Origin: Klenkia terrae
Lineage (GTDB): Bacteria > Actinomycetota > Actinomycetes > Mycobacteriales > Geodermatophilaceae
Length of the DNA: 52,449 nucleotides
Direction: 5' to 3'
Assembly (NCBI RefSeq): GCF_900491935.1
Contig: NZ_UEXK01000004.1
Span: forward strand, 463,543-515,991
The position numbers and the translations under genes are program-made. How positions within the stretch are numbered: the stretch's first letter is position 1; each line of letters begins with the position of its first letter. Below, piece after piece: positions 22,016 to 36,929 of the stretch. The notes below the pieces were generated by a model. The model did no database searches and had not been told where the DNA came from. It was given only the letters and a program-made list of their open reading frames with translations.

Positions 22016-24057
22016 CGGGCTCCTCCGGCGGTGATCTCGGTGGGGACGACGTCGACGGCGGCGATCTCGGCGCCGGCTTCCTCGGGCGTCCAGCTGATCC
22101 GGTGCAGGGCGAGGTCCTCGACCCGGACGCAGCGGACCAGTCCGCCGCCGTGCGCAGGGACGGCGGGGAACGGCGTCCGGCACTCGTCGGTGGCGAACAG
22201 GCAGCGGCCGGCGAACCGGCAGCCCACGGGCCAGGTGCCCGGGGAGGGCACCGTGCCGGCGATCGAGGCCAGCCGCTCGGGGACCGGCTCGCCGTCGGGC
22301 ACGTGCGGGTCGGCGCCCAGCAGCGCCATCGTGTACGGGTGCCGGGGCTCGTCGAGCACCGCGGTGGTCGCGCCGGCCTCGACCACCTCGCCGGCGTACA
22401 TGACGGCGACGTCGTCGCAGAGGTCGGCGACCACGCCCAGGTCGTGGGTGACCAGCACGACCGACAGCCCGGTGTCGCGCACCAGGGCGCGGAGCAGGCT
22501 GAGGATCTCGGCCTGCACGGTGACGTCGAGCGCGGTGGTCGGCTCGTCGGCGACCAGCAGGTCCGGCTCGCCGGTGAGCGCGAGGGCGATGCAGACCCGC
22601 TGCGCCATGCCGCCGGACAGCTGGTGCGGGTAGCTGCCCAGGATCCGGTCGGCGTCCACGATGCCCACGTTGCGCAGCAGCTGCGCGGCGATGGTGCGGG
22701 CCTCCCGCCGCCCCACCCCGCGGTGCCGGCGGATCGGCCCGGTGAGCTGGGTGGCGACGGAGAAGGCCGGGTCCAGGGCGACCATCGGCTCCTGGGAGAT
22801 CAGCGCGATCCGGCTGCCGCGGTAGCCGCGCAGCTCGCCCTCGGCCAGGCCGACCAGGTCGGTGCCCTGGAAGCTGATGGAGCCACCGGAGACCTCGACG
22901 CCGTCGGGCAGCAGGCCCAGCAGCGAGCGGGCGGTCATCGACTTGCCGCAGCCGGACTCGCCGACCAGGCCGAGCACGGTGCCGCGACGGACGGTCAGCG
23001 AGACCCCGGTGACCAGGTCGGGGCCGTCGACGACGCTGACCCGCAGGTCGCGGACGGCGAGCACGGCGTCGTCGGGCACCGGCGCGGGATCCGCAGCGGG
23101 GACCGCCGAGGGCGCCGGGGCGGGCGTCGTCGTCCGGGCCCGGCGGGAGCGGCGGCGGGCGCCCGCCCCGCCGCGGGCGGCGAGGGCGTCGGCGAGCTCG
23201 TTGGCCGCGACGACGGTGAGCGCGAGGACCAGGCCAGAGGGCACCAGCAGCCACGGGCCGTCGAACAGGTGCGAGGAGGCGTCGTTGATCATGAAGCCCC
23301 AGCTGGGGTCGGGCTCGCCGGGGCCGAAGCCGAGGAAGGCCAGCCCGGCGACGACCAGGATGCCGATGCCGAACAGCTGGGCGGCCTGCACCGCGATGAC
23401 GGTGCCCATCGCCGGCAGCACGTGCCGGACGTTCACCCGGACCGAGCCCAGGCCGTCGACCCGGGCGGCGTCGACGTAGAGCCGCTGCCGGACCGACTGC
23501 GCGACACCCAGCATCACCCGGTAGACCGCCGCGGACAGCAGCACCCCGAACACGGCCATGACCAGCGGGATGTCGTTGCCGACGATGCCGATGACCGCCA
23601 GCAGCAGCACGGTGGCCGGCAGCGCGAGCAGCACCTCGGTGGCCCGGCTGATCAGCCGCTCGGTGCGGCCCGGGCGCTCGGCGGCGACGAGCGCGAGCGG
23701 CAGGCCGATGCCGAACGCGACGACGAGCATGAGCGCCGAGGACAGCAGCGGCAGCGAGCCGGCGGTGGCGATCCGGGAGAGCAGGTCGCGGCCCAGCGGG
23801 TCGGTGCCCAGCAGGTGGTCGGCCGAGGGCAGCGAGAGCCGGTCGCCGAGGTCCTGGGCGGTGACGTCGTAGGGCACCCACAGCGGTGCGGTCAGCGAGG
23901 CGAGGACGACGACGACCAGCCAGGCCGCGCCCAGCGCGCCGCCGGGGCGGCGGAGGAAGGCGGGCACCCCGCGCCGGCGGCTCGGCGGGGCGACCTCGGT
24001 GGCCGGCTCGTCCGGGGTCAGCAGGTCGGCATCGGGCAGGGGCTGGGGAGCGCTCAC
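22012..24057 (-). CDS. Fused ABC permease (DppC-like) and ATPase (DppD-like)
   Basis: The product is 681 residues. Residues 1-290 are a DppC-type permease: one N-terminal helix, a [12 protein letters not shown] segment, about five more helices and an EAA-like loop ([11 protein letters not shown]). An Ala/Pro/Arg-rich linker of about 40 residues follows. The ATPase begins near residue 340, with GESGCGKS as Walker [16 protein letters not shown] as signature, [11 protein letters not shown] as Walker B and a C-terminal Cys-containing extension ([13 protein letters not shown]). Permease-ATPase fusions of this type occur in actinobacterial oligopeptide-type transporters. The fusion fixes a 1:1 ratio between DppC and DppD functions. 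Confidence 0.92.
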
Positions 24058-24995
24058 GCGGCACGCACCTTGGGGTCGAGGGCTGCGGTCACCAGGTCCA
24101 GCAGGAGGTTGACCAGGACGACGACGACGGTGGCGACGACGACCACCCCGACCAGCGCGGGGAAGTCACCGGAGCTGGCCGCCGCCTGGCTGGCCTGGCC
24201 GAGCCCGGGCAGCGCGAAGAGGTTCTCGATGATCACCGAACCGCCGAACAGGGCGATGAACTGGATGCCCAGGACCGCGACCACCGGGACGGCGGCCGAG
24301 CGCAGGGCGTGCACGTAGCGGATCCGCCACTCGGGGGTGCCGGTCGCCCGCAGCGTGCGGATGTGCTCGGCGCCCAGCACCTCGCGCATCGAGGCGGCCG
24401 AGGTGCGGGCCACGATCGCGGCCCCGCCGATGGTCAGCGCCAGCACCGGCAGCGCGACGCTCTGCAGCCAGCGGCCGGGGTCGGTGCTGAAGGGGACGTA
24501 GCCGGTGGCCGGCAGCAGGCCGGCCTGCAGGGAGAGCACGTAGACCAGCAGGACGCCGACCCAGAACTGCGGCAGGGAGAGGGCGATGCCGCTGCCGGTG
24601 GAGATGGCCTTGCCCAGCCGGCCGCCGCGGACCGCGGCGGTCACGCCGAGCAGGACGCCGACCACGCCGGACAGCAGCGTGGCCAGCACGGCGATCGACG
24701 CTGTGACCGGCAGCCGCGAGGCCAGGTCGGCCTCGATGTCGCGGCCGTCGATCAGGGAGGTGCCCAGGTCCAGGCGGACCAGCTGGGCCAGGTAGTCCCC
24801 GAACTGCTGCCAGAGCGGGTCGTCCCACCCCAGCCGGGCGTTCTCCGCGGCGATGTCGGCCGCGGTGGCCCCCGCCCCGAGCCGGACGGCGCCGGGGGTG
24901 GTGTCGCTGGCGTGCACCAGCAGGAAGCTGATCAGCACGGCGACGAGCACCGTGACGACGGCGAACGCCAGCCGGCGTGCGACGAAGGCGAGCAT
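24054..24995 (-). CDS. ABC transporter permease (DppB-like)
   Basis: The product is 313 residues with about six membrane helices. The first helix (LAFVARRLAFAVVTVLVAVLISFLLV region) and the C-terminal part with IIENLFALPGLGQ are typical of DppB/OppB. The cytoplasmic loop RTSAASMREVLGAEHIRTLRATG contains the EAA-type contact with the ATPase. ATG 24995 is the start, with a gap of 71 bases to the preceding binding-protein gene that holds a hairpin. It should form the translocation pore with the permease half of the next gene. Confidence 0.92.
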   Translation of the reverse strand: MLAFVARRLAFAVVTVLVAVLISFLLVHASDTTPGAVRLGAGATAADIAAENARLGWDDPLWQQFGDYLAQLVRLDLGTSLIDGRDIEADLASRLPVTASIAVLATLLSGVVGVLLGVTAAVRGGRLGKAISTGSGIALSLPQFWVGVLLVYVLSLQAGLLPATGYVPFSTDPGRWLQSVALPVLALTIGGAAIVARTSAASMREVLGAEHIRTLRATGTPEWRIRYVHALRSAAVPVVAVLGIQFIALFGGSVIIENLFALPGLGQASQAAASSGDFPALVGVVVVATVVVVLVNLLLDLVTAALDPKVRAA

Positions 24996-25024
24996 CGGGG
25001 GCTCCAGTCGGGAGGGGGTGGGGT

Positions 25025-25059
25025 GCCGGTGGCCGGGCCGCGGGAGCCCAGCCACCGGC
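25025..25059 (-). promoter_or_regulatory. Intercistronic hairpin between binding-protein and permease genes
   Basis: GCCGGTGGC (25025-25033) and GCCACCGGC (25051-25059) form a perfect 9-bp stem with a 17-base loop. It lies 8 bases after the binding-protein stop codon. This is the only substantial gap in an otherwise overlapping operon. Such hairpins commonly stabilise the upstream message or attenuate read-through, so that more binding protein than permease is made. Confidence 0.6.
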
Positions 25060-25066
25060 GGTTGCG

Positions 25067-26614
25067 TCAGGCCGGCTGGATGGCCGAGAGCACCAGGTAG
25101 TTGTTCGTCCCGGCGAAGGAGGGCTCGCCCACCGAGTCGGCGTTGTAGCCGGCGTAGGTGAAGTCCTCGTAGACCGGCACGTACCAGCCGCGCTCGGTCA
25201 GCAGGGTGTTGAGCTGGGTGAGCGCCTGCGCCTGGGTGTCACCGGTGGTGCCCAGCGAGGCGCCCAGGGCCGCGGAGATGTCCGGGTCCTGCGCCTGCTG
25301 CAGGTTCATGAACCCGCCGACGACGACCCCGGCGACGAAGCCGGCCGGGTTGGCCCCGATGCCGAAGGGCCCGAACAGGATCGGGTCGGTGGAGACCGCG
25401 GCGAAGGCCTGGTCGGTCGACGTGGCCGTGACGAAGGTCAGCGTGATGCCGACCTCGGCCCACTGGGCCTGGATGGCGACGGCGTCCTCGTCGGGCTGGC
25501 CCAGCACGGTCAGGTTGACCTCGATGCCGTCCGGGTAGCCGGCGTCGGCCAGCAGCTGGCGGGCCTTGTCCGGGTCGTAGGCGTACTCGGTGTCGACGGC
25601 GGCGTCGAAGCCCGCGGTGCCCTCGGGGAACAGCTGCGAGGTGGCGCGGGCACCGGGGTGCAGGTCGTCGACCAGTGCCTGCCGGTCGGTGGCGTAGATC
25701 AGGGCCTGGCGGACCTCCACGTTGCCGAACGCCGGGTTGATCGCGCCGGTCTTGTCGGTGACCGGGAAGCCGACGATCGTGCCGCCGACGCTGACCGTCT
25801 TCTGCCGCGACTCGACCAGGTCGATGGTGGAGGGGTCGAGGATCGTGGCGACGTCGGCCTGGCCGGAGACGACCGCGTTGGCGAGGGCCTGGGCGTCGGT
25901 GATGACGGTGAAGACGATGGTGTCGTAGGACCAGCTGTCGGCGTCCCAGTTGTCGGCGTTCTTCGTCACCGTGTACGAGCTCGCCCGGGTGCTGGCATCG
26001 GCGTCCAGGGTGTAGGCGCCCGAGCCGTCGGGGGTGGTCTCCAGGGTGTCGGGATCGGCGACGCCGTCCGGGCCGACGATGGTGCCCTGGGTGTCGACCA
26101 GCGTGTTCTCCGGCGTGGCCTGCGGGGCGGCCCAGGTGATGACGACGGTCTGCGGGTCGGTGACCGCGACGTCGGTGATCTCGCTGGCGCCCCCGGCGGC
26201 GAAGGCGCCGTAGGCCGTCAGGTCGGCGTCGGTGCGCCGCTCGAGGTTGGCCTTGACCAGGTCGGCGTCCAGGCTCGAGCCGTCGGTGAAGGTGACGTCG
26301 TCACGCAGGGTGATCGTGGTCTGCAGGTTGTCCGCGCTGTTGGTGTAGCCGGTGGCCAGCGAGGGCTGGGAGACGCCGTCGGTGTCGGTCTCCCACAGCG
26401 CGTCGTACATCGAGCTGAAGAAGGTGAACTGGCCCTGCGAGTAGAGCAGCGGGTCGTAGCCGGTGGGCGCCGCGTCGGCGTCGAACGCCACGGTCAGCGT
26501 GCCCTCGGCGCTCTGGCTGCTGCTGCCCCCGCCGCTGCCGCCGCCGCAGGCGGTGAGGCCGAACGCGGCCACGGCGGCGAACGCCACCCCGGTCGTGGTC
26601 CTGGAACGATTCAT
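25067..26614 (-). CDS. ABC transporter substrate-binding lipoprotein, SBP_bac_5 family
   Basis: The product is 515 residues. It has a lipoprotein signal peptide: basic MNRSR start, hydrophobic core, and lipobox LTAC with Cys 23. A Gly/Ser linker follows, then a family 5 (DppA/OppA-type) solute-binding fold; the VEVRQALIYATDRQALVDDL segment is characteristic. It would capture substrate outside the cell and deliver it to the permeases encoded downstream. Family 5 proteins bind peptides, nickel or oligosaccharides. Co-transcription with two rhamnosidases, GH3 and an esterase-like gene points to plant glycosides. ATG 26614 has a GGAG ribosome-binding site about 12-15 bases upstream. The promoter must lie in 26615-26722, shared with the IclR gene. 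Confidence 0.92.
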   Translation of the reverse strand: MNRSRTTTGVAFAAVAAFGLTACGGGSGGGSSSQSAEGTLTVAFDADAAPTGYDPLLYSQGQFTFFSSMYDALWETDTDGVSQPSLATGYTNSADNLQTTITLRDDVTFTDGSSLDADLVKANLERRTDADLTAYGAFAAGGASEITDVAVTDPQTVVITWAAPQATPENTLVDTQGTIVGPDGVADPDTLETTPDGSGAYTLDADASTRASSYTVTKNADNWDADSWSYDTIVFTVITDAQALANAVVSGQADVATILDPSTIDLVESRQKTVSVGGTIVGFPVTDKTGAINPAFGNVEVRQALIYATDRQALVDDLHPGARATSQLFPEGTAGFDAAVDTEYAYDPDKARQLLADAGYPDGIEVNLTVLGQPDEDAVAIQAQWAEVGITLTFVTATSTDQAFAAVSTDPILFGPFGIGANPAGFVAGVVVGGFMNLQQAQDPDISAALGASLGTTGDTQAQALTQLNTLLTERGWYVPVYEDFTYAGYNADSVGEPSFAGTNNYLVLSAIQPA

Positions 26615-26702: not shown

Positions 26703-26713
26703 GTCAGGCACAA

Positions 26714-26728
26714 TGCCGGTCAATGGCA
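26714..26728. promoter_or_regulatory. Predicted IclR operator, site 1 (TGCC-N7-GGCA)
   Basis: TGCCGGTCAATGGCA overlaps the start codon of the IclR gene (ATG 26723-26725). The -10-like CACAAT (26709-26714) abuts it, 8 bases before the ATG. The same 15-mer recurs at 27547 (13 of 15 bases) and 32617 (14 of 15). The location suits autorepression and control of the divergent operon. Confidence 0.7.
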
Positions 26729-27541
26729 CACGAGATCCCGACCCCCGAGCCCCGGGTCCGCGGCAAGCGCCCTCCGCAGGGCGATCCCGTGGTCGACCGG
26801 GCCCTCGCCCTGCTGGGCGCCTTCGACGCCCGCCGCCGCTCGCTGACCCTGGGTGAGCTGGCCCGGCGCAGCGGCATCCCGACCAGCTCCGCGCTGCGGC
26901 TGGCGGGTCGGTTGGTGGCCTGGGGCGCGCTCGAGCGGGACGCCGAGGGCCGGTTCTCCATCGGCCTGCGGCTGTGGGAGGTGGCCTCGCTGGCCCCGCG
27001 GGCGCAGGGCCTCAAGCAGGTGGCGATGCCCTACATGGGCGACCTGGAGGAGGTCACCCGCCAGCACGTGCTGCTGGCCGTGCGGGACGGCGACCAGGGG
27101 CTGCTGGTCGAGCGGCTGTCCTCGCACCTGGCGATGCCGGTGCTCTACCGGGTGGGCGGGCGACTGCCCCTGCACTCGACCGGCGTCGGGCTGGTGCTGC
27201 TGGCCCACGCCGACACCGACTTCCAGGAGGAGGTGCTGGCCCGGCCGCTGGTGCACGAGCCGGAGAAGGTCGCCGTCTCCCCCGCCGCGCTGCGCCGCAC
27301 GCTGGCCGCGATCCGCCGCGAGGGCTCGCACACGCTGCGCCGACGCGCCCCGCAACCGCTGGTGAGCGTGGCCTGCCCGGTGTTCGGCGACGACGACCGG
27401 ATCGCCGCGGCGCTGTCGGTGGTGGTGCCGATGGAGCACGCCGAGCCGCGGCTGCTGGTGCCCGCCGTGCGCACCGCTGCCCGGGCGATCTCCCGCGGTC
27501 TGGGCGCGCAGCGCTCGATCGGCCTGGTCCCCGCGCCCTGA
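26723..27541 (+). CDS. IclR-family transcriptional regulator of the glycoside island
   Basis: The product is 272 residues. The N-terminal winged helix-turn-helix covers about residues 20-80, containing VVDRALALLGAFDARRRSLTLGELARRSGIPTSSALRLAGRL. The C-terminal IclR effector domain follows, with the expected LPLHSTGVGLVLLAH and SVACPVFGDDDRIAAALSV segments. IclR proteins usually bind short aromatic or sugar-acid effectors and act as repressors or activators. The gene is divergent from the nine-gene glycosidase operon, and a predicted operator overlaps its own start codon. Two further copies of that operator precede esterase-GH43 and the quercetinase operon, so this is the probable regulator of all three units. 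Confidence 0.9.
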   Translation: MAHEIPTPEPRVRGKRPPQGDPVVDRALALLGAFDARRRSLTLGELARRSGIPTSSALRLAGRLVAWGALERDAEGRFSIGLRLWEVASLAPRAQGLKQVAMPYMGDLEEVTRQHVLLAVRDGDQGLLVERLSSHLAMPVLYRVGGRLPLHSTGVGLVLLAHADTDFQEEVLARPLVHEPEKVAVSPAALRRTLAAIRREGSHTLRRRAPQPLVSVACPVFGDDDRIAAALSVVVPMEHAEPRLLVPAVRTAARAISRGLGAQRSIGLVPAP

Positions 27542-27546
27542 AACCG

Positions 27547-27561
27547 TGCCGGTGGATGGCA
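27547..27561. promoter_or_regulatory. Predicted IclR operator, site 2 (TGCC-N7-GGCA)
   Basis: TGCCGGTGGATGGCA lies 6 bases after the IclR stop and 88 bases before GTG 27649 of the esterase. It is flanked by G on the left and C on the right, extending the dyad to GTGCC/GGCAC. No other gene start lies between, so esterase-GH43 is the likely target. Confidence 0.7.
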
Positions 27562-27648
27562 CCGGCCTGGGGTGTGCGCGGCCGGTGGTCCAAGGTCGGG
27601 GCCTGCACCCGTGGCGTGCGTCACGGGGCCGACCACCCAGGAGCTGCC

Positions 27649-28596
27649 GTGCCCGTCCACCCGTCCCAGGCCTCGCGGTTCGCCCTGCTCGACGGGCTGA
27701 CGTCGTTCGAGGCGGCGATGGCCGACCCGGCGTCCCGGGCCCGGCTCGACGCGTTCATGTCCCTGGGCGAGGCACCGCCGGCCCCCGACGTGCACGTCCG
27801 GGACACCGTCGCCCCGGGCCCGCACGGCGACGTCCCGGTGCGGGTCTACTCCCCCGCCGCCGACGGCACCGGCCGGCCGGGCTTCGTGTGGATGCACGGC
27901 GGCGCCTTCCGCGCGGGTGACCTGGACATGCCCGAGGCCGACCGGACCGCCCGCGAGGTCTGCGCCCGCGCCGGTGCGGTGGTGGTGAGCGTGGACTACC
28001 GGCTTGCGGTGGACGGCGTCACCTACCCGGTCCCGCACGACGACGTGGTGGCCGCCGTCCGCTGGGTGCGCGACGAGGCCGCCGCGTTGGGCGTCGACCC
28101 GGCCCGGATCACCGTCGGCGGCGCCAGCGCCGGCGGCAACCTGGCCACCGGGGCGACCCTGCGGCTGCGCGACGACGAGGGGTGGCAGCCGGCCGCGCTG
28201 GTGCTCGCCTACACGACGACGCACGCCGTCCTGCCGCCTGCGTCGGCCGAGCTGACCGCCCTGATGGCCGAGGTGCCCGTCCTGCTGCGCTTCCCGCCGG
28301 CGGCCCGGGCCGGGATCACCCGCAACTACGTCGGCGGGGCCGAGAGCCGGGCCGACGGGTACGCGATGCCGGCCGGCGCCGTCCTGACCGGGCTGTGCCC
28401 GGTGGTCGCGCTGACCGCGGAGTACGACGACCTGCGGGTGTCCGCCGAGCACTTCACCGCGGCGCTCGCGGTGGCCGGGGTCGACGTCCGGCAGGTGCTG
28501 CTGCCGGGCATGCTGCACGGCTTCCTCAACCTGCCGGCCACGATCGGGCCGGTGGACCGGGCGCTCGCGCTGATGAGCGAGGTGGTCGCGTCGTGA
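27649..28596 (+). CDS. Alpha/beta-hydrolase esterase, HSL family
   Basis: The product is 315 residues. The oxyanion motif HGGAFRAGD, nucleophile elbow GGASAGGN, acid Asp in TAEYDDLRVS and base His in GMLHGFLN are all present, so this hormone-sensitive-lipase-type esterase should be active. The start GTG 27649 is supported by AGGAG at 27639-27643. It overlaps the GH43 gene by 4 bases. No secretion signal is visible, so it acts in the cytoplasm, probably on acyl groups decorating imported glycosides. The IclR-type palindrome upstream places it in the island's regulon. Confidence 0.9.
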   Translation: MPVHPSQASRFALLDGLTSFEAAMADPASRARLDAFMSLGEAPPAPDVHVRDTVAPGPHGDVPVRVYSPAADGTGRPGFVWMHGGAFRAGDLDMPEADRTAREVCARAGAVVVSVDYRLAVDGVTYPVPHDDVVAAVRWVRDEAAALGVDPARITVGGASAGGNLATGATLRLRDDEGWQPAALVLAYTTTHAVLPPASAELTALMAEVPVLLRFPPAARAGITRNYVGGAESRADGYAMPAGAVLTGLCPVVALTAEYDDLRVSAEHFTAALAVAGVDVRQVLLPGMLHGFLNLPATIGPVDRALALMSEVVAS

Positions 28597-30035
28597 ACCC
28601 GGCCCTCCCGGGCTTCCACCCGGACCCGAGCATCGTGCGGGTCGACGGCACCTACTACCTGGTGACCTCGACGTTCGAGTACCTGCCCGGGCTGCCGGTG
28701 CACCGCAGCACCGACCTGGTGTCGTGGGAGCTCATCGGGCACGTCGCCGTGCGGCCCGAGCAGCTCGGGCTGGACGACGTCCCGACGCCGGGCGGCACGT
28801 GGGCGCCGACGATCCGGCACCGTGACGGCACGTTCTTCGTGGTGGTCACCGTGATGCTGGGCGGCCGCGGCTGCGTGGTCTTCTCGGCCACCGACCCGGC
28901 CGGGCCGTGGAGCGACGGGGTGCCGGTGCCGGCCGTCGAGGGCATCGACCCCGACCTCGCCTGGGACGACGACGGCACCGCGCTGATCACCTTCGCCGGC
29001 TTCCCGCACCCGATCCGCCAGGTGCCGGTCGACCTGTCGACCGGGCAGGCGCTGGGCCCGGTCCGGGAGATCTGGGCCGGCACCGGGGCCTTCGCACCGG
29101 AGGGCCCGCACCTGTACCGCCGCGGCGGGCACTGGTACCTGCTGGTCGCCGAGGGCGGCACCGACCGCGGCCACCGGGTGAGCATCGCCCGCGGCCCGTC
29201 CCCGTCGGGACCCTGGGCGGCCGCACCCGGCAACCCGGTGCTGACCGCGGTCGGCACCGAGCACGCGGTGCAGAACACCGGCCACGCCGACCTGGTCGAC
29301 ACCCCGGACGGCGGGACGGCGATGGTGCTGCTCGGGGTACGCCCGCTGGGTTTCGCGAACGCGTTCTCCCCGCTGGGCCGTGAGACCTTCCTGGTGCCGG
29401 TGACCTGGGTCGACGGCTGGCCGCAGGCGTCGCTGCCCGAGGCCACCGGCACCCCGGACGAGGACGTCGCCGGCGGGGACGACTGGATCGCCGTCCGGCG
29501 CACGCCGTCGTCCCTCCTCGGCGGGGACGGTCTGGTGCTGACCGGCGAGGGCACGACGCTGGCGGACCGGCGACCGGTCTTCGTGGGCCGACCGCAGCGG
29601 CACCTGGGCTGCACCGTCGACGTCGTGGTGGACGCCTCCGCCGGGCGTGGCGGCCTGGCCGCGCGGCACGACGAGCAGCACTGGTTCGGCCTGGAGGCGA
29701 CCACGGACGGCGACCGGACCGTGGTCACCGCGCGGGCCGTGCTCGCCGGGCTGGAGAGCACCTGGACGGCGGCGTTCCCGGCCGGTCCGGTGCAGCTGCG
29801 CATCGAGCAGCAGCTGCCGCCGGGTGGGTTCGTGCCCGCGGCGGTCGGCGGCGGCGTGGTGCGGATGCTGGCCGCCTGGGCCGATGCCGACCCGGTGCTG
29901 CTGGCGGAGTTCGACGGCCGGTACTGGTCCTACGAGGTGGCCAAGTCCTTCACCGGCCGGGTGTGGGGCCTGTTCGCCGTCGACGGCACGGTGTCCTTCA
30001 CCGACCTCCGCTACCGCGGCAGCGACTCGGCCTGA
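28593..30035 (+). CDS. GH43-family glycosidase (beta-xylosidase/alpha-L-arabinofuranosidase type)
   Basis: The product is 480 residues. The five-bladed propeller begins with GFHPDPSIVRVDGTYYLVTS, whose HPDPS Asp is the general base. IDPDLAWDDDG supplies the pKa-modulating Asp and APEGPHLYRRGGHWYLL the general acid Glu. After about residue 300 comes a beta-sandwich domain typical of GH43 arabinofuranosidases/xylosidases. There is no signal peptide, so the substrate is imported. It may remove arabinose or xylose from glycosides. Start GTG 28593 overlaps the esterase stop. Substrate is inference from fold only. Confidence 0.9.
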   Translation: MNPALPGFHPDPSIVRVDGTYYLVTSTFEYLPGLPVHRSTDLVSWELIGHVAVRPEQLGLDDVPTPGGTWAPTIRHRDGTFFVVVTVMLGGRGCVVFSATDPAGPWSDGVPVPAVEGIDPDLAWDDDGTALITFAGFPHPIRQVPVDLSTGQALGPVREIWAGTGAFAPEGPHLYRRGGHWYLLVAEGGTDRGHRVSIARGPSPSGPWAAAPGNPVLTAVGTEHAVQNTGHADLVDTPDGGTAMVLLGVRPLGFANAFSPLGRETFLVPVTWVDGWPQASLPEATGTPDEDVAGGDDWIAVRRTPSSLLGGDGLVLTGEGTTLADRRPVFVGRPQRHLGCTVDVVVDASAGRGGLAARHDEQHWFGLEATTDGDRTVVTARAVLAGLESTWTAAFPAGPVQLRIEQQLPPGGFVPAAVGGGVVRMLAAWADADPVLLAEFDGRYWSYEVAKSFTGRVWGLFAVDGTVSFTDLRYRGSDSA

Positions 30036-30043
30036 CCGGCCCG

Positions 30044-30113
30044 GCAGACTCCCGTCGTCCAGGGGTGTTGTGCCCCTGCAGGGCGTGGCCATCCCTGCAC
30101 GGCGGGAGTCTGC
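30044..30113. repeat. Branched inverted-repeat element between convergent genes
   Basis: The outer arms GCAGACTCCCG (30044-30054) and CGGGAGTCTGC (30103-30113) are perfect 11-bp complements. Inside lie two adjacent hairpins: CAGGGG/CCCCTG (30060-30065 with 30073-30078) and CAGGG/CCCTG (30079-30083 with 30093-30097). The 70-base unit can therefore fold as a three-way junction. It separates the convergent GH43 and cupin genes, so it can serve as a bidirectional terminator. Its compact, fully paired shape also resembles small dispersed palindromic repeats. Confidence 0.6.
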
Positions 30114-30124
30114 GGGTGGTCGGG

Positions 30125-30589
30125 TCAGCCGCTGGTGGTGTCGTAGCGGGAACGCAGGGCGGCCAGCAGCTCGGCGGTGGGTTCCTCGCCCGCGGCGACG
30201 GCGGCGTGCACGTCGCGGAAGTACTGCTCGTAGCCGGCCGGGGTGTACATGCACAGCGCCCGGACCGGGTCGGAGCCGCTGTCGTTGCGGTAGCCGTGCG
30301 CGGTGCCGCGCAGCGCGGCCGCGGTGTCCCCGGCGGCGAGGACGACGTCGTCCCCGGCGGTGCTCAGCGTGAGGTGCCCGGACAGGACCACGAAGTACTC
30401 GTCGTGCGAACCGTGCACGTGCGGCCGGGCGCCGAGGGTGGCCGGCCGCAGCGTGAACTCCTCCAGCCCGAACCGGCCCCCGGTCTGCTCCCCGGTGAGC
30501 GCGAACAGGTGCGCGATGCCGCCGGCGTCGATCGCCTCGCCCGCGCCTGCCCGGATGACGAGCGGCAGATCTCCTGGAGCCGTGGTCAC
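30125..30589 (-). CDS. Single-domain cupin protein
   Basis: The product is 154 residues, started at GTG 30589. Cupin motif 1 is present: RPHVHGSHDEYFVVLSG gives two His and one Glu as metal ligands. Motif 2 is degenerate (LRGTAHGYRN) but keeps the last His. It could be a dioxygenase, isomerase or sugar-sensing protein; the sequence does not decide. The C-terminal 30 residues are helical. It is divergent from a GNAT gene, each with a leaderless-type -10 box, and it lacks the IclR-type palindrome. Confidence 0.8.
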   Translation of the reverse strand: MTTAPGDLPLVIRAGAGEAIDAGGIAHLFALTGEQTGGRFGLEEFTLRPATLGARPHVHGSHDEYFVVLSGHLTLSTAGDDVVLAAGDTAAALRGTAHGYRNDSGSDPVRALCMYTPAGYEQYFRDVHAAVAAGEEPTAELLAALRSRYDTTSG

Positions 30590-30596
30590 CGCCCGC

Positions 30597-30602
30597 ACGC
30601 TA
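30597..30602 (-). promoter_or_regulatory. Candidate -10 box (TAGCGT on minus strand) for the cupin gene
   Basis: On the minus strand TAGCGT ends 7 bases before GTG 30589. This is the same sequence and nearly the same spacing as at 4224 and 6359, with no ribosome-binding site. Confidence 0.5.
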
Positions 30603-30660
30603 GCCGGAGCCCGGGGCCGACCGCGTCGACAACTCCGGGGACGGGCCGGCCCATCGGCGC

Positions 30661-30666
30661 TACGGT
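30661..30666 (+). promoter_or_regulatory. Candidate -10 box (TACGGT) for the GNAT-FAD oxidoreductase pair
   Basis: TACGGT ends 6 bases before GTG 30673. Together with the cupin box on the other strand it makes a compact divergent promoter pair of about 80 bases. Confidence 0.45.
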
Positions 30667-30672
30667 GCGGCC

Positions 30673-31185
30673 GTGTCCGAACCGCCTGCCGTGACCCTCC
30701 GCGCGCGCACCGACGCCGACCTCGACGTGCTGTTCGAGATCGCCGCCGACCTGGACACCTGGGAGGAGCGGAACCCCTCGGCGCCGGCACCCCTCACCCG
30801 GGAGCGGTTCGACGCCCGGCATGCGGCCCGCACCGGGGGCGACGACGTGGAGTTCGTGGTCGACGTCGAGGGCCGGGCCGTGGGCACGGTCGCCCTGTTC
30901 GGGTTCGACCCCTTCGCCCGGCACGCCGAGGCCGGGATCAGCCTGCTGCCCGGGGCCCGCGGTCGCGGGATCGGCACGGCCGCGCTGGTCCAGCTGGTCG
31001 AGTTCGGGTTCACCCGGCGCAACCTGCACCGGATCCACCTGCAGGCCATCGCCTCCAACACCGGCGGCCTGCGCGCCTACGAGAAGGCGGGCTTCGTGCT
31101 GGAGGGGCGGCTGCGCGAGCACGCCTGGGTGCGCGGCGGCTACGAGGACATCGTGCTCATGGGCGTCCTGGCGCCCCGGCGGTGA
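30673..31185 (+). CDS. GNAT N-acetyltransferase, RimJ/RimL type
   Basis: The product is 170 residues. The acetyl-CoA loop GARGRGIGTAALVQLVEFGF and the downstream HRIHLQAIASNTGGLRAYEKAGFVLEGRLREHAWVRGGYEDIVLMGVL are characteristic of the RimJ/RimL branch. These enzymes acetylate N-termini of ribosomal proteins or small amines. The actual acceptor is unknown. It overlaps the FAD oxidoreductase by 4 bases (GTGA) and is probably co-transcribed with it. Confidence 0.9.
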   Translation: MSEPPAVTLRARTDADLDVLFEIAADLDTWEERNPSAPAPLTRERFDARHAARTGGDDVEFVVDVEGRAVGTVALFGFDPFARHAEAGISLLPGARGRGIGTAALVQLVEFGFTRRNLHRIHLQAIASNTGGLRAYEKAGFVLEGRLREHAWVRGGYEDIVLMGVLAPRR

Positions 31186-32600
31186 CCGTCGTGGAGACCG
31201 ACTACCTGGTCGTCGGCGCCGGAGCCACCGGGCTGGCCTTCGTCGACACCCTGCTGGACGAGACCGACGCGCACATCACGGTCGTCGACCGGCACGGCGC
31301 ACCGGGCGGGCACTGGAACGACGCCTACCCCTTCGTCACCCTGCACCAGCCGTCGGCGTTCTACGGGGTCAACTCCCTGGAGCTCGGTACCCGGCGGCTG
31401 GACACCGCCGGGCTGAACCAGGGCCTGTACGAGCTGGCCTCCGGTGCGGAGATCACCGCCTACTACGACCGGCTCGTGCGCACCCGACTGCTGCCCAGCG
31501 GCCGGGTCGACCACCACCCGCTGAGCGAGTACGAGGCCACCCCGGACGGCGGTCACCGCTTCCGCAACCTGCTGTCCGGCGCCACCACCGAGGTCCGGGT
31601 GCGCCGCAAGGTCGTCGACGCCACCTACAGCAGCCCGTCGGTCCCCTCCACCCACCGGCCGCGGTTCGCCGTTGCGGACGGCGTCGACCTGGTCCCGCCG
31701 AACGCGCTCCCGGGCCTCGCGCACCGCGCCCCGGCGCGGTTCGTCGTGCTCGGCGGCGGCAAGACCGCGATGGACACCTGCGTCTGGCTGGTCCAGCACG
31801 GCGCCGACCCGGACGCGATCACCTGGGTGGTGCCGCGGGACTCCTGGCTGATCAACCGGGTCACCACCCAACCCGGGCCCGAGTTCTTCCACGAGGCGAT
31901 CGGTGGCCAGGCCGACCAGATGGAGGCCTTCGCGACCGCGACGGACACCGCGGACCTCTTCCGCCGGCTGGAGCGCTGCGGCGCGATCACCCGGGTCGAC
32001 CGGGACCGCGCACCCGGCATGTTCCACCTGGCCACCGTGGCGCCCGGCGAGGTCGAGGTGCTCCGCGGGATCCACGACGTCGTCCGGCTCGGCCGGGTCC
32101 GGGAGCTGCAGCCCGACGCGATGGTGCTCGACGGCGGCACGGTGCCGGTCGCCCCCGGCACGGTGTTCGTCGACTGCACGGCCTCGGCCGTCGAGCGCCG
32201 GCCGGTGCAACCGGTCTTCCAGGGCGACCGGATCGTCCTGCAGCTGGTCCGGCTCCCGCAGCCCGCGTTCAGCGCCGCGCTCACCGCCTACGTCGAGGCG
32301 CGGTACGACGACGACGAGCACCGGAACCGGCTGTGCGGCACCGTCCCCTTCCCGTACGACCTGGACGACTACCCGGCGACGATGCTGGCCACGATGTGGA
32401 ACCAGTTCCACTGGGGCCAGGACGCCGAGCTGCGCCGGTGGATCCGCGCCAGCCGGCTCGACGGCTTCGGGAAGCTGATGGCCGAGGCCGACCGGGACGA
32501 CCCGGCGCAGCGCGACGTCCTCGCCCGGATCCGGGAGCACGCGCCCGGCGCCGTGGGCAACCTGACCCGCCTCGTCGAGGCCCGGAGCGCGTCGGCCTGA
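31182..32600 (+). CDS. FAD/NAD(P)-binding oxidoreductase of unknown substrate
   Basis: The product is 472 residues. GAGATG at residues 12-17 opens a Rossmann fold, and VDRHGAPGGHWNDAYPFVTLHQPSAFYG follows as in flavin monooxygenase-like proteins. A second dinucleotide site, VVLGGGKTAMDTCVWL, is near residue 190. The C-terminal third is helical and does not match a family I recognise. It could be a monooxygenase or NAD(P)H dehydrogenase acting on a polar small molecule. No signal peptide or membrane segment is present. It is coupled to the GNAT gene and ends 105 bases before the quercetinase operon. Confidence 0.75.
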   Translation: MTVVETDYLVVGAGATGLAFVDTLLDETDAHITVVDRHGAPGGHWNDAYPFVTLHQPSAFYGVNSLELGTRRLDTAGLNQGLYELASGAEITAYYDRLVRTRLLPSGRVDHHPLSEYEATPDGGHRFRNLLSGATTEVRVRRKVVDATYSSPSVPSTHRPRFAVADGVDLVPPNALPGLAHRAPARFVVLGGGKTAMDTCVWLVQHGADPDAITWVVPRDSWLINRVTTQPGPEFFHEAIGGQADQMEAFATATDTADLFRRLERCGAITRVDRDRAPGMFHLATVAPGEVEVLRGIHDVVRLGRVRELQPDAMVLDGGTVPVAPGTVFVDCTASAVERRPVQPVFQGDRIVLQLVRLPQPAFSAALTAYVEARYDDDEHRNRLCGTVPFPYDLDDYPATMLATMWNQFHWGQDAELRRWIRASRLDGFGKLMAEADRDDPAQRDVLARIREHAPGAVGNLTRLVEARSASA

Positions 32601-32616
32601 CGTCCCTCGGAAGCCG

Positions 32617-32631
32617 TGCCGCTCAATGGCA
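32617..32631. promoter_or_regulatory. Predicted IclR operator, site 3 (TGCC-N7-GGCA)
   Basis: TGCCGCTCAATGGCA differs from site 1 by one base. It lies 75 bases before ATG 32706 of the quercetinase-like gene. A second dyad, CGGTGAC-CGCC-GTCACCG (32645-32662), follows and could form a leader hairpin or bind another factor. Confidence 0.7.
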
Positions 32632-32705
32632 GGGTGCTGCCCCGCGGTGACCGCCGTCACCGATGCTCAACGGAGTCGACGCCGACCCCGCGCCTGGAGG
32701 CAGCC

Positions 32706-33260
32706 ATGAGCTTCGAGTACCTGATCGACCCCGCGAACGGTCCGCAGTGGCAGGGCCAGCTGCCCGGCAAGCCCGAGCCCTACGTGCTGCGCCGCGGCGA
32801 GGGCGAGCACGCCAAGCTGTTCGGCGACCTGTTCACCGTGCTGCTGTCCGGCGACGAGACCGAGAACCAGTTCGGCGTGATCGTGGCCGACTCCCCCGCC
32901 GGCGACGTCATCCCCACCCACAGCCACGACGCCACCCACGAGACGTTCTACGTGCTCGAGGGCAAGGTCCGGCTGTTCTTCGAGGACACCGAGGGCGCCC
33001 AGCAGACCCGCCTGCTCGCCCCCGGCGACTTCGGCTTCGTGCCCGCCGGCTACGCCCACGCCTACCAGGTGGTCGAGGCCAGCCGGATGATGGGCACGCT
33101 GTCCGGCGGCTTCGAGCGGTTCTTCCAACACATGGGCACCCCGACCGACCACACCGGCGACCAGCCGCCGTTCATCCCGGACTTCCCGCGCATGCAGGCC
33201 GCGGCCCAGCAGCACCGCATGAAGTTCCTCCCCGAGCACCGCTGGGACGTCCAGGAGTGA
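32706..33260 (+). CDS. Monocupin quercetin 2,3-dioxygenase-like protein
   Basis: The product is 184 residues, started at ATG 32706 with GGAGG 9 bases before it. Cupin motif 1 is perfect: GDVIPTHSHDATHETFYVLEG gives ligands His 72, His 74 and Glu 79. Motif 2, GDFGFVPAGYAH, gives His 118. The length and ligand spacing match the nickel/cobalt monocupin quercetinase of Streptomyces sp. FLA as I remember it (about 186 residues). That enzyme opens the central ring of quercetin with O2, releasing CO and a depside. Genes for esterase, aromatic monooxygenase and GH1 follow in the same operon, which fits flavonol breakdown. Other cupin dioxygenase substrates remain possible. Confidence 0.82.
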   Translation: MSFEYLIDPANGPQWQGQLPGKPEPYVLRRGEGEHAKLFGDLFTVLLSGDETENQFGVIVADSPAGDVIPTHSHDATHETFYVLEGKVRLFFEDTEGAQQTRLLAPGDFGFVPAGYAHAYQVVEASRMMGTLSGGFERFFQHMGTPTDHTGDQPPFIPDFPRMQAAAQQHRMKFLPEHRWDVQE

Positions 33261-34138
33261 CGCTGCCACCCCCGGCGCACAGCGCTCCGCTCCCCCCGGC
33301 CCGGACGACGGCCGACGGCGTCCGGGTGCTCGCCGGCGTCCCCTACGCCGCCCTCCCCGGCGCCCGGCCGCTCGAGCTCGACCTCTACCTGCCGGCCGAC
33401 CCCGGCCCGGCGCCGGTGGTCGTCTTCCTGCACGGCGGCGGCTGGCGGCTGGGCAGCCGGCACTCGGCCGGCCCGCAGTTCACCGGCAGCGCCCCGTTCG
33501 AGCAGCTCGCGCAGGCCGGCATCGCCGTCGCGGCGCTGGACTACCGGCTCTCCGGCGAGGCGGTCTGGCCGGCCCAGCTGCACGACGCGAAGGCCGCCGT
33601 CCGGTGGCTGCGGTTCCGGGCAGACGAGCTCGGCGTCGACCCCGACCGGGTCGCCGCGTGGGGCGAGTCCGCCGGCGGTCACCTGGCCGCGCTGCTCGGC
33701 CTGACCGGCCCGGACCTGGACGGCGACGTCGGCGTCACCGGGCCGGCGAGCACCGTCCGCGCCGTCGTCGCCTGGTACCCGCCGACCGACCTGGCCACCG
33801 TGCCGGCCGACCCGACCGACGCGACCACCCGGGAGGCGCAGCTGCTCGGCGCCGCCCCGGCCGACGTCCCCGAGTTCGCCGCGCAGGCCAGCCCGGTCAC
33901 CCACGCCGGACCCGCCGCGCCACCGTTCCTGCTGCTGCACGGGGACGCCGACCGCATGGTCGGCCACCGGCAGAGCGAGCTGCTGCACGCCGCGCTCACC
34001 GCCGCCGGCACCCCGGTCGAGCTGGTCACCCTGCCCGGCGCCGACCACATGTGGCTGGGCTCCCCCGACGCAGCCGCCACCGCACTCACCCGCACCACCG
34101 CGTTCCTGACCCGGCACCTCCTCGGGGACCACCAGTGA
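33257..34138 (+). CDS. Alpha/beta-hydrolase esterase, HSL/BD-FAE type
   Basis: The product is 293 residues. The oxyanion motif is HGGGWRLGS, the nucleophile elbow WGESAGGHLA, the acid Asp lies in LLHGDADRMV and the base His in GADHMWLGS; all catalytic residues are present. It resembles the esterase-like protein of the rhamnosidase operon but keeps the Ser. In this operon a natural substrate would be the depside ester made by quercetinase, or acyl groups on glycosides; this is inference. GTG 33257 overlaps the cupin stop by 4 bases. Confidence 0.9.
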   Translation: MTLPPPAHSAPLPPARTTADGVRVLAGVPYAALPGARPLELDLYLPADPGPAPVVVFLHGGGWRLGSRHSAGPQFTGSAPFEQLAQAGIAVAALDYRLSGEAVWPAQLHDAKAAVRWLRFRADELGVDPDRVAAWGESAGGHLAALLGLTGPDLDGDVGVTGPASTVRAVVAWYPPTDLATVPADPTDATTREAQLLGAAPADVPEFAAQASPVTHAGPAAPPFLLLHGDADRMVGHRQSELLHAALTAAGTPVELVTLPGADHMWLGSPDAAATALTRTTAFLTRHLLGDHQ

Positions 34139-35766
34139 CCGGCCCCCGCCCCACCGCGCCCCGGCAGGTCCCGGTGCTGGTCGCCGGCGGTGGCCCCAGC
34201 GGTCTGGCGGCGGCGATCGAGCTGGGCCGGCGCGGCGTCCGGGTGCTGGTCGTGGAGCCCCGCGAGGTCCTCGACCCGCTGCGCGCCCGGGCCAAGACCA
34301 CCAGCGTGCGCACCATGGAGCACCTGCGGCGCTGGGGCCTGGCCGACGAGCTCCGCCGACGTGCTCCGCTGCCGGTCGAGCACGCGCAGGACGTCGTGTT
34401 CTGCACCTCGGTGTTCGGCCGCGAGCTGACCCGGTTCCCGAACGCCTTCGGGCTGTGGACGCAGCCCCGGGACATCGCCGCCGAATCCGGCCAGCAGGTG
34501 CCGCAGCCGGTGGTCGAGCAGCTGCTGCGCGACGCGGTGGCCGACCTGCCGTCGGTGACCCTGCTGCTGGGCTCGCGGGTCACCGAGGTGCACGACGGCC
34601 CGGACGGCGTCCGGGCCGTCGTCACCGGCGCCGACGGCACGACCACCGAGGTGCACGCCGAGTACCTGCTCGGCGCCGACGGCGGCAGCGGGGTCTCCCG
34701 CGCCGCGATCGGCGCCCGGTACGCCGGGTCCTCGGGCACCGCCCCGAACCTGTCGCTGGCCTTCCGGTCGCGCACCCTCGACGAGCGCCCGCCCTGTGCG
34801 CTCGGCGTGCACTGGTGGGTGGTCGGCGGGGAGCGCGGCGGGCTGATGGGCCGGTTGGACCTGGCCGGCACCTGGTGGGCGATCGTGCAGGGCGTCGACG
34901 TGTCCCGCGAGGACGTCGACCCGGTCGCCCTGGTGCGGGCCTTCGCCGGTGACCCCGACTGCGACGTCGAGGTGCTGGTCACCGACCCCTGGTCGGCCCG
35001 GATGCTGCTGGTGGACCGGTACCGCGGCGAGCGGGTGTTCCTGGTCGGCGACGCCGCGCACCTGAACCCGCCGTGGGGCGGGCACGGGTTCAACACCTGC
35101 GTCGGCGACGCGGTCAACATCGGCTGGAAGCTCGCCGCCGTGCTGCAGGGCTGGGCCCCGGCGTCGCTGCTGGACAGCTACGAGCCCGAGCGCCGTCCGG
35201 TCGCCGAGCGGACCATCGCCGCCGCCGGGGACCAGGAGGCGTTCACCGCCACCCGCTTCGCCGGGCGGGACGCCGAGGCCCCGGGCCCGGACGGCGACGC
35301 GGTCCGCGCCGAGCTGGCCGACGCCCTGCAGGTGAAGGACCCGGAGTTCCACAGCCTGGGCCTGGTGCTGGGCTACGACTACGCCGACTCCCCGGTCGTC
35401 GTCCCCGACGGGTCGGTGCCGCCGGCGCACGACGTCGTCGGGTTCACCCCGTCCGCGCACCCCGGTGCCCGGCTGCCGCACGCCTGGCTCCGGCCGGGCC
35501 GCTCGGTCTACGACGAGCTGGGCGAGGGGTTCACCCTGCTCGTCACCGCCGGCGACCCCGACCCGCTGGTGGCCGAGGCCGCCCGGCGCGGGGTGCCGCT
35601 GTCGGTCACCGACCTGTCCGCCGCGCCTGCGCTGCGCGACCTGTGGGGAGCCGGCCTGGTGCTGGTCCGCCCCGACCAGCACGTCGCCTGGCGCGGGGAC
35701 TCGGTCCCCGACCCCACCGTCCTGCTCGACGCCGTCACCGGCGCCCACACCCTGGAGACCGCATGA
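34135..35766 (+). CDS. FAD-dependent aromatic monooxygenase (class A hydroxylase)
   Basis: The product is 543 residues. The three class A flavoprotein motifs are visible: AGGGPSG (residues 17-23), the DG motif in LLGADGGSGVSR and the GD motif in VFLVGDAAHLNPPWGGHGFNT. The C-terminal 150 residues form the thioredoxin-like domain found in phenol-hydroxylase-type members. Such enzymes hydroxylate phenolic rings with NAD(P)H and O2. With the quercetinase and glycosidases in the same operon, hydroxylation of a flavonoid ring or of a phenolic product is a reasonable proposal. It overlaps neighbours by 4 bases on both sides. Confidence 0.9.
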   Translation: MTGPRPTAPRQVPVLVAGGGPSGLAAAIELGRRGVRVLVVEPREVLDPLRARAKTTSVRTMEHLRRWGLADELRRRAPLPVEHAQDVVFCTSVFGRELTRFPNAFGLWTQPRDIAAESGQQVPQPVVEQLLRDAVADLPSVTLLLGSRVTEVHDGPDGVRAVVTGADGTTTEVHAEYLLGADGGSGVSRAAIGARYAGSSGTAPNLSLAFRSRTLDERPPCALGVHWWVVGGERGGLMGRLDLAGTWWAIVQGVDVSREDVDPVALVRAFAGDPDCDVEVLVTDPWSARMLLVDRYRGERVFLVGDAAHLNPPWGGHGFNTCVGDAVNIGWKLAAVLQGWAPASLLDSYEPERRPVAERTIAAAGDQEAFTATRFAGRDAEAPGPDGDAVRAELADALQVKDPEFHSLGLVLGYDYADSPVVVPDGSVPPAHDVVGFTPSAHPGARLPHAWLRPGRSVYDELGEGFTLLVTAGDPDPLVAEAARRGVPLSVTDLSAAPALRDLWGAGLVLVRPDQHVAWRGDSVPDPTVLLDAVTGAHTLETA

Positions 35767-36929
35767 CCGCCACCTTCCCGCCCGCCTTCCTCTGGGGCAC
35801 CGCCACCGCCGCCCACCAGGTCGAGGGCGGCAACACCCAGAACCACTACTGGGCCTGGGAGCACGCCGAGCACTCCCCCTTCGCCGAGGTCAGCGGGGAC
35901 GCCTGCGACAGCTACCACCGATGGCGCGAGGACCTGGACCTGGTCGCCGGGTCGGGGCTGGGCGCCTACCGGTTCAGCCTGGAGTGGAGCCGGATCGAGC
36001 CGGAGGAGGGCGAGGTCTCCCGGGCCGGGCTCGACCACTACCGGCGGATGGTCGACGGCTGCCTGGAGCGCGGGCTCACCCCGCTGGTCACGCTGATGCA
36101 CTTCACCACCCCGCGGTGGTTCCACGAGGACGGTGCCTGGACCTCGCCCAAGGCCGCCGACCGGTTCGCCCGGTTCACCGAGACCGTGCTGCCGGTGCTG
36201 GCCGACGTCCCGTACACGATCACGATCAACGAGCCCAACCTCGCCTCGGTGCTGCCGGTGCTGGGCGCGATGGCCGCCCGCGGCGAGCAGATCTCCGGGC
36301 TGCCCCGCCCCGACCAGCGGCTGGCCGACGCCTTCCTCGACGCGCACCGGGCCAGCGCCCAGGTGCTGCGCGGCGCCGGGGTGACCCACGGCCTCTCGCT
36401 GGTCGGCCAGGAGTGGATCGTCGAGGACGGCGGGGACGACGAGATGGTCGCCCACCGCGCGGCCATGGAGGACCAGTTCCTCGAGGTGGCCGGCGAGGGC
36501 GACTTCGTCGGCATGCAGATCTACAGCTGCGCCCGGATCGGCCCGGACGGCCCGGTCGCCGGCGACGCGGACCTGATGACCTTGGCGCACATGGAGTACC
36601 GACCGGGCGCCCTGGGCGCGTCGGTCCGCCGGGTGGCGGAGGTGCTGCCGGACACCCCGATCGTGGTCACCGAGAACGGGATCGCGACCACCGACGACGC
36701 GCAGCGGATCGCCTTCACCGGCGAGGCGCTGGGGTCCCTGGCGCAGGCGATCACCGACGGGGTCGACGTCCGCGGGTACGTGCACTGGTCTCTGCTGGAC
36801 AACTTCGAGTGGTTCGCGGGCTACACGCCGACCTTCGGCCTGGTCGAGGTCGACCGGCAGACCTTCGTCCGCACGCCGAAGCCGAGCCTGGCCTGGTTGG
36901 GCGGGGTGGCGCAGGCGAACGCGGTCTGA
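35763..36929 (+). CDS. Beta-glucosidase-type glycoside hydrolase, GH1 (short form)
   Basis: The product is 388 residues. The GH1 N-terminal signature FLWGTATAAHQVEGGNTQN is present. The acid/base Glu lies in TINEPN and the nucleophile in VVTENG, with the late aglycone-site motif WSLLDNFEWFAGYTPTFGLV. Typical GH1 enzymes have 440-480 residues; the loss here is in the loops between the two catalytic strands, as in other short actinobacterial forms. It should cleave beta-glucosides inside the cell. It is the last gene of the operon and ends before a strong hairpin. Confidence 0.92.
   Translation: MTATFPPAFLWGTATAAHQVEGGNTQNHYWAWEHAEHSPFAEVSGDACDSYHRWREDLDLVAGSGLGAYRFSLEWSRIEPEEGEVSRAGLDHYRRMVDGCLERGLTPLVTLMHFTTPRWFHEDGAWTSPKAADRFARFTETVLPVLADVPYTITINEPNLASVLPVLGAMAARGEQISGLPRPDQRLADAFLDAHRASAQVLRGAGVTHGLSLVGQEWIVEDGGDDEMVAHRAAMEDQFLEVAGEGDFVGMQIYSCARIGPDGPVAGDADLMTLAHMEYRPGALGASVRRVAEVLPDTPIVVTENGIATTDDAQRIAFTGEALGSLAQAITDGVDVRGYVHWSLLDNFEWFAGYTPTFGLVEVDRQTFVRTPKPSLAWLGGVAQANAV

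Follow-up and report, generated by a model that had tools for sequence, protein, structure and literature searches.

Three near-identical 15-bp sequences flank and intersperse a set of catabolic genes in Klenkia terrae, and one of them coincides with the start of a gene for an IclR-family regulator. The locus raises the question whether these sequences are the operators of that regulator and, if so, which genes they would place under its control. We addressed it in a stretch of 52,449 nucleotides (contig NZ_UEXK01000004.1, positions 463,543 to 515,991; assembly GCF_900491935.1), referred to here as the window, and in related genomes. The comparative data show that the three sequences represent a real, conserved, promoter-associated element, which is linked to iclR and whose sequence changes along with the recognition helix of the encoded protein. 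Very probably, all three serve as operators for the IclR protein encoded between them, with binding predicted from these comparisons, and control a regulon for the catabolism of flavonoid glycosides.

A preliminary description of the window had presented the three sites as copies of a 15-bp palindrome, matching pairwise at 12 or more positions. The sequences were recovered at the reported places (Table 1), share one orientation, and agree at 14 of 15 (sites 1 and 3), 13 of 15 (sites 1 and 2), and 12 of 15 positions (sites 2 and 3); the CCG directly 5' of sites 2 and 3 is also alike. Thus, the sites themselves are real, but the palindrome is only partial, with complementary bases in five of the seven pairs in sites 1 and 3 and four of seven in site 2, and the core is directional. 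The pattern TGCCGNTNNATGGCA matches the 4,806,923-base genome three times, in each case within the cluster (reversed control, 0), which agrees with the earlier remark that no copy was seen in other intergenic gaps, and no other exact copy was found in coding DNA anywhere in the genome. Three matches in the window compare with a mean of 0.005 in first-order Markov resamplings, none of which reached three in 400 trials. Because the pattern was picked after the sites had been seen, its rarity is weak evidence alone, and the relatives weigh more. Looser patterns recur. With up to two mismatches, TGCCGNTNNATGGCA has 10 matches in the window (shuffles, mean 3.1, maximum 8). The bare TGCC-N7-GGCA has six, a number reached in 3 of 400 resamplings, and was rejected as a motif for being unspecific. 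Eight one-mismatch matches to TGCCGSTSRATGGCA were listed elsewhere in the genome; of the five inspected, one falls outside called genes, and the remaining four are within them, in one case right where the gene begins.

Among 112 Geodermatophilaceae genomes, the source genome included, the motif refined on relatives, TGCCGNYCAATGGCA, from which site 2 differs by two mismatches, was detected in 32 genomes with 68 exact copies (reversed control, 5 copies). An iclR orthologue (E<=1e-75) is likewise present in 32 genomes, and 30 of these carry the motif (Fisher p 1.5e-22, uncorrected for relatedness). Of the 68 exact copies, 63 are located on the contig that carries iclR, at most 16.2 kb away from it. 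Across the phylum, single isolated copies were found in eight of 395 other genomes, against five copies of the reversed control. Ten of 59 relatives possess iclR orthologues of at least 60% identity, and most of these ten have a site at iclR plus a site preceding the next gene; copies after iclR, at the place of site 2, also occur in relatives. Named relatives in the comparison include Klenkia soli (Geodermatophilaceae), Blastococcus, Geodermatophilus, and Modestobacter. The sites are therefore kept together with iclR, as the preliminary description had required of a genuine regulon, and the element is conserved both with the regulator and upstream of the same genes.

We examined 34 regions (1,107,880 bases, 79,026 of them non-coding) for the placement of the element; a site was taken as non-coding also when it fell no more than 15 bases from the low end, or 9 from the high end, of any called gene. 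Exact copies of TGCCGNYCAATGGCA number 64 outside genes or at gene ends and one inside, the latter in G088, a genome without an iclR orthologue; one-mismatch copies divide 44 to 1, and two-mismatch copies 26 to 14. Copies with at most one mismatch and not well inside called genes form a set of 108 sites from 33 of the 34 regions, to which sites 1 and 3 belong; site 2, with its two mismatches, does not. A matrix built from the 106 sites outside the source genome ranks sites 3, 1, and 2 first to third in the window, with 28.2, 27.9, and 14.5 bits, the next score being 10.5 bits in coding DNA.

The genes that these 108 sites face recur across the regions. Quercetinase is the next gene for 26 sites, at distances of 79 to 89 bp, and the monooxygenase for 21. 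Twenty forward sites are located upstream of iclR, 18 of them facing the gene for the solute-binding protein SBP5 as well. Esterase genes follow 11 sites, including distances of 618 bp (G018) and 1478 bp (G099); in G099, iclR was missed by the gene caller, and its iclR-side site is therefore tallied under the esterase. Ten sites are reversed and lie upstream of GH1 or esterase genes, eight are found 186 to 194 bp upstream of GH2 genes at the far end of the cluster (G018, G023, G030, G065, G066, G117, G119, and G121), and a few face other or unlabelled genes. No site of the GH2 type was found within the window. The gene order between sites varies, and therefore the sites follow genes rather than a fixed block. 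The proposal that they unite iclR, the esterase-GH43 unit, and the quercetinase-esterase-monooxygenase-GH1 unit is thus upheld in relatives; it overlooked the divergent transporter unit facing site 1. Presumably, the regulon also takes in this unit of about 15 kb, which encodes a transporter together with GH3 and GH78 enzymes.

More distant orthologues offer a view of how the element and the regulator vary together. We inspected 79 of 80 named loci with IclR relatives (L214, with iclR at a contig edge, was omitted) for TKYCRNYCAATGRMA at up to one mismatch within 320 bp upstream of iclR. It was detected in 66 of the 79, whereas shuffled sequences would yield between 0.00 and 0.12 loci for each group. 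The positive loci include 23 of 24 from Geodermatophilaceae, 10 of 10 from Streptomyces, Planobispora, Planomonospora, and Nonomuraea, 26 of 27 from Arthrobacter, Pseudarthrobacter, and Microbacterium, and 6 of 11 remaining loci. In the Pseudonocardia, Microbispora, Nonomuraea, and Thermocatellispora group it precedes iclR in one of four loci, and the other three carry a copy at another place in the locus. All 26 site-bearing loci whose regulator has the recognition helix PAPTALRL show T at position 2 of the site. Where the helix reads PTSS, PASS, PAST, PPST, or PLST, this position is G in 30 of 34 site-bearing loci, T in three, and A in one. Such parallel differences between operator and recognition helix are what direct binding by IclR would predict. 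IclR is also the sole regulator among the 12 gene groups that 20 or more of the 34 regions contain. Symmetric forms of the site occur as TGCCATTCAATGGAA in Streptomyces and Planobispora and as TGCCATTCAATGGCA in G065 and G081, which suggests that the asymmetric core seen here is derived. Loci L202 and L203 (near 9890 and 12490-12590) each contain two near-perfect TGCCATTCAATGGAA palindromes, one of them upstream of quercetinase.

Several points weigh against this assignment. Quercetinase occurs in 29 of the 112 genomes, all 29 with iclR, and because of this co-occurrence linkage cannot single out IclR from the other genes of the cluster. The motif occurs without iclR in G088 and G129, and iclR without an exact motif in G066 and G106. 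Site 2 deviates at two core positions. TKYCRNYCAATGRMA was not found upstream of iclR in 13 of the 79 loci, including all three from Nocardioides and Aeromicrobium, and this relaxed pattern was written after the Arthrobacter sites had been seen, just as the seeds of the matrix and the refined consensus were chosen with the sites of the source genome in view. Recognition helix and phylogeny are confounded. Finally, the operator assignment stands on sequence comparison.

If the sites are IclR operators, a dimer or a pair of dimers would bind each of them. At site 1, IclR would cover the -10 and start region of its own gene, resulting in autoregulation, and would control the divergent transporter-GH3-GH78 unit; from sites 2 and 3, it would control esterase-GH43 and quercetinase-esterase-monooxygenase-GH1, respectively. 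A flavonol, or a product of flavonol cleavage, would act as inducer, this being the probable sense of the regulation. Flavonoid glycosides would be taken up, deglycosylated by GH78, GH1, GH3, and GH43 enzymes, and cleaved by quercetinase, with ester hydrolysis and ring hydroxylation to follow.

Whether IclR would activate or repress depends on the promoters at which the sites lie. Downstream of the site, promoters of quercetinase and monooxygenase genes share a GTGAC block and GATGCT at fixed spacing, and GANNCT is found at +46 after 40 of the 108 sites. At +22, with the site numbered from its first base, 94 of the 108 have a T; the Streptomyces and Planobispora loci have CTGG there. This T is possibly part of a -35 element or an extra contact, and T(+22), GTGAC, and GATGCT may be read together as -35, CRP-like box, and -10. 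Site 3 would then stand just upstream of a putative -35/-10 pair, and site 1 extends over the putative iclR -10 and the gene start; for this reason, IclR is favoured as an activator at site 3 and a repressor of its own gene, with somewhat better than even chances and with less assurance than the operator assignment itself. The same operator and the same IclR protein could also act as plain repression of all units, released by an inducer. This simpler scheme has a substantial chance of being correct, a little short of even, given that site 1 overlaps a putative -10 and the start codon, that the promoter elements are themselves putative, and that a site may cover an unseen promoter; it fits less well with the quercetinase and monooxygenase sites, which are located upstream of T(+22), GTGAC, and GATGCT, where an activator would be expected should these form the promoter.

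The CRP-like box brings another type of regulator into consideration. GTGA-N6-[TCG]CAC is present within 45 nt downstream of 53 of the 108 sites, in 44 cases exactly at +31, and within 45 nt upstream of 24, compared with 29 of 2885 non-coding windows elsewhere; these control windows overlap, and related genomes and sites share ancestry, so that the 44 are not independent events. The exact GTGA-N6-TCAC, which we take to be the CRP/GlxR consensus, is found after site 3 and after 30 of the 108 sites. One protein of the genome scores above the cut-off for the CRP-type helix-turn-helix domain (PF13545). The motif could thus be the operator of another regulator, unlinked or of CRP type, its linkage to iclR reflecting merely that motif and whole cluster travel together. 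We consider this improbable, since operator and IclR helix differ together and the motif is unlike GTGA-N6-TCAC. Moreover, G014 and G120, which have iclR and no quercetinase match, carry exact sites beside iclR, and in G016, where quercetinase is on another contig, copies with up to one mismatch occur only on the iclR contig. A third genome with iclR and no quercetinase match, G106, has only a one-mismatch copy, 6.2 kb away.

A terminator or RNA hairpin at site 2, and perhaps at the others, was also weighed. Site 2 could pair GCCGGTG with CACCGGC directly past the iclR stop codon, and two of 12 post-iclR copies fold clearly better than mononucleotide shuffles (G018, z -2.96; G065, z -2.41). 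The other 10 give z scores of -1.54 to 0.92 (source genome, -0.93), none of the 12 is followed by a run of more than two T, and sites 1 and 3 are on the promoter side. With no T-run in any copy and 10 of 12 folding close to shuffles, this explanation was rejected as very improbable. Chance similarity, to which an after-the-fact pattern with common loose versions (165 matches to TGCCGSTSRATGGCA in the genome when as many as two mismatches are allowed, compared with 96 to its reversed control) might point, is contradicted by the linkage, conservation, and non-coding bias in relatives and was rejected as having practically no likelihood.

Returning to IclR as the protein predicted to bind these sites, the iclR promoter itself has an unusual arrangement. 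The site had been described as lying on the IclR start, and the ATG (26723) is indeed within site 1, both in this genome and in G004, the nearest relative. This does not extend to relatives in general: among the 20 forward sites, from 19 genomes, an ATG in the site, in frame and with no stop before the called iclR, was found for only three (G000, G004, and G120). A leader of about 50 bp, found in five other aligned sequences, is missing here and in G004. Upstream of site 1, GTCAGGCACAATGCCG is conserved and may be a third IclR box or, equally, a -10 element or a CRP-like half-site. When the CRP-like box is placed at +31, its centre lies about 29.5 bp from that of the site, near three helical turns. 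It is tempting to speculate that the asymmetric IclR operator works jointly with the CRP-like box, at its fixed spacing, as a composite switch that ties flavonol induction to catabolite control, and that loss of the leader in this Klenkia lineage fused the operator to the iclR frame, so that the operator supplies the start codon of a probably leaderless mRNA; we put this forward tentatively, as rather unlikely to hold as a whole.

Table 1. Predicted operators, promoter elements, and genes of the cluster, with positions in the window
Feature	Coordinates	Strand	Remarks
Site 1, TGCCGGTCAATGGCA	26714..26728	+	Predicted operator in the divergent SBP5/iclR spacer; includes the iclR ATG
Site 2, TGCCGGTGGATGGCA	27547..27561	+	Predicted operator upstream of esterase-GH43; weakest copy
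Site 3, TGCCGCTCAATGGCA	32617..32631	+	Predicted operator, 89 bp upstream of the quercetinase start
CACAAT	26709..26714	+	Putative -10 for iclR, whose transcript would be leaderless; conserved in 7 aligned sequences
CRP-like box, GTGA-N6-TCAC	32647..32660	+	At +31 from site 3
GATGCT	32662..32667	+	Putative -10 for quercetinase; consensus derived from promoters of 26 quercetinase and 21 monooxygenase genes
IclR-family regulator, 272 amino acids	26723..27541	+	PF09339, 51.8 bits (cut-off 22); PF01614, 92.2 bits (cut-off 24)
Esterase (Abhydrolase_3)	27649-28596	+	Profile match
GH43	28593-30035	+	Profile match
Quercetinase-like cupin, BD-FAE esterase, FAD monooxygenase, GH1	32706..36929	+	Profile and sequence matches
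SBP5, OppB, fused OppC-OppD, OppF, GH3, GH78, BD-FAE esterase, GH78, nucleoside-hydrolase-like gene	11659..26614	-	

The genes around the sites were called with a small script that took the window as its training sequence, and start codons are approximate; for SBP5, the script gave 26587, and 26614 is preferred for a good ribosome-binding site recognized by eye. The regulator contains both the helix-turn-helix and the C-terminal effector domain of the IclR family. It scores 110.6 bits against the PcaR/PcaU/PobR subfamily model TIGR02431, below the curated cut-off of 284.75. Residues 20-181 of the 184-residue quercetinase align to the best PDB match (5fli, E 1.4e-44), which we take to be QueD of Streptomyces sp. 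FLA, and by this relation the protein is assigned as a QueD-type monocupin quercetinase. From what is established for these families, GH78 and GH1 enzymes strip flavonol glycosides of rhamnose and glucose, an esterase splits the depside, and the flavin monooxygenase hydroxylates a ring; the substrates of the cluster are presumed to be rutin-like. Neighbouring genes of the divergent unit overlap by 4 bases, SBP5-OppB excepted, and the unit is presumably co-transcribed from SBP5 to the nucleoside-hydrolase-like gene. It includes an OppC-OppD fusion (681 amino acids, 22012-24057), which combines BPD_transp_1 permease and ABC_tran ATPase domains in one protein. Genes for an FAA hydrolase and a DUF3500 protein, each present in 28 of the 34 regions and located beside the esterase in the listed regions of relatives, are absent from the window as compared over 33257-35766, the rest of the genome not having been searched for them. 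A long inverted repeat, GCAGACTCCCG ... CGGGAGTCTGC, noticed by eye at 30044-30116 between the convergent GH43 and cupin genes, is probably a two-way terminator.

Titles and abstract openings in the open-access literature yielded no published account of such a regulon, and we regard it as a new regulon of the known IclR family with a variant operator. It provides a defined operator and a target list for an IclR protein that probably governs flavonoid-glycoside breakdown in Geodermatophilaceae, together with related operator versions upstream of orthologues in the Streptomyces/Planobispora and Arthrobacter groups. Orthologues in which operator and helix differ together form a ready set for studies of IclR-DNA recognition. 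For group 1 IclR regulators, Suvorova and Gelfand (2021, PMC8222616) give the operator layout KTYCRY-W3-RYGRAM. With its middle three positions left free, site 1 agrees with this layout at 12 of 15 positions and site 3 at 13, and orthologues elsewhere reach 14 to 15. Site 1, like many of the surveyed operators, is centred close to a start codon. G/C in place of T/A at positions 2 and 14, a C at the centre, and the asymmetric core set the present element apart. The survey also describes three-box IclR operators; its main text does not mention quercetin.

Among individual regulators, PlaR/YiaJ of E. coli (PMC6958661) resembles the present protein as an IclR-family regulator of the use of plant-derived material, but no quercetinase appears among its targets in the part of that report consulted. 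Flavonoid-responsive control of quercetinase is exerted in Bacillus by QdoR and LmrA, which belong to the TetR family and have an operator different from the one described here. The closest parallel on the enzyme side is QueD of Streptomyces sp. FLA, the best structural database match of the window quercetinase, for which cleavage of quercetin to the depside and CO has been described (PMC4416304). Transcription of queD is reported there to be induced by quercetin through a mechanism called elusive, and the text available to us names neither a regulator nor an operator. The present data thus suggest a candidate regulator, and the exact DNA on which it would act, for the quercetin induction of actinobacterial queD.

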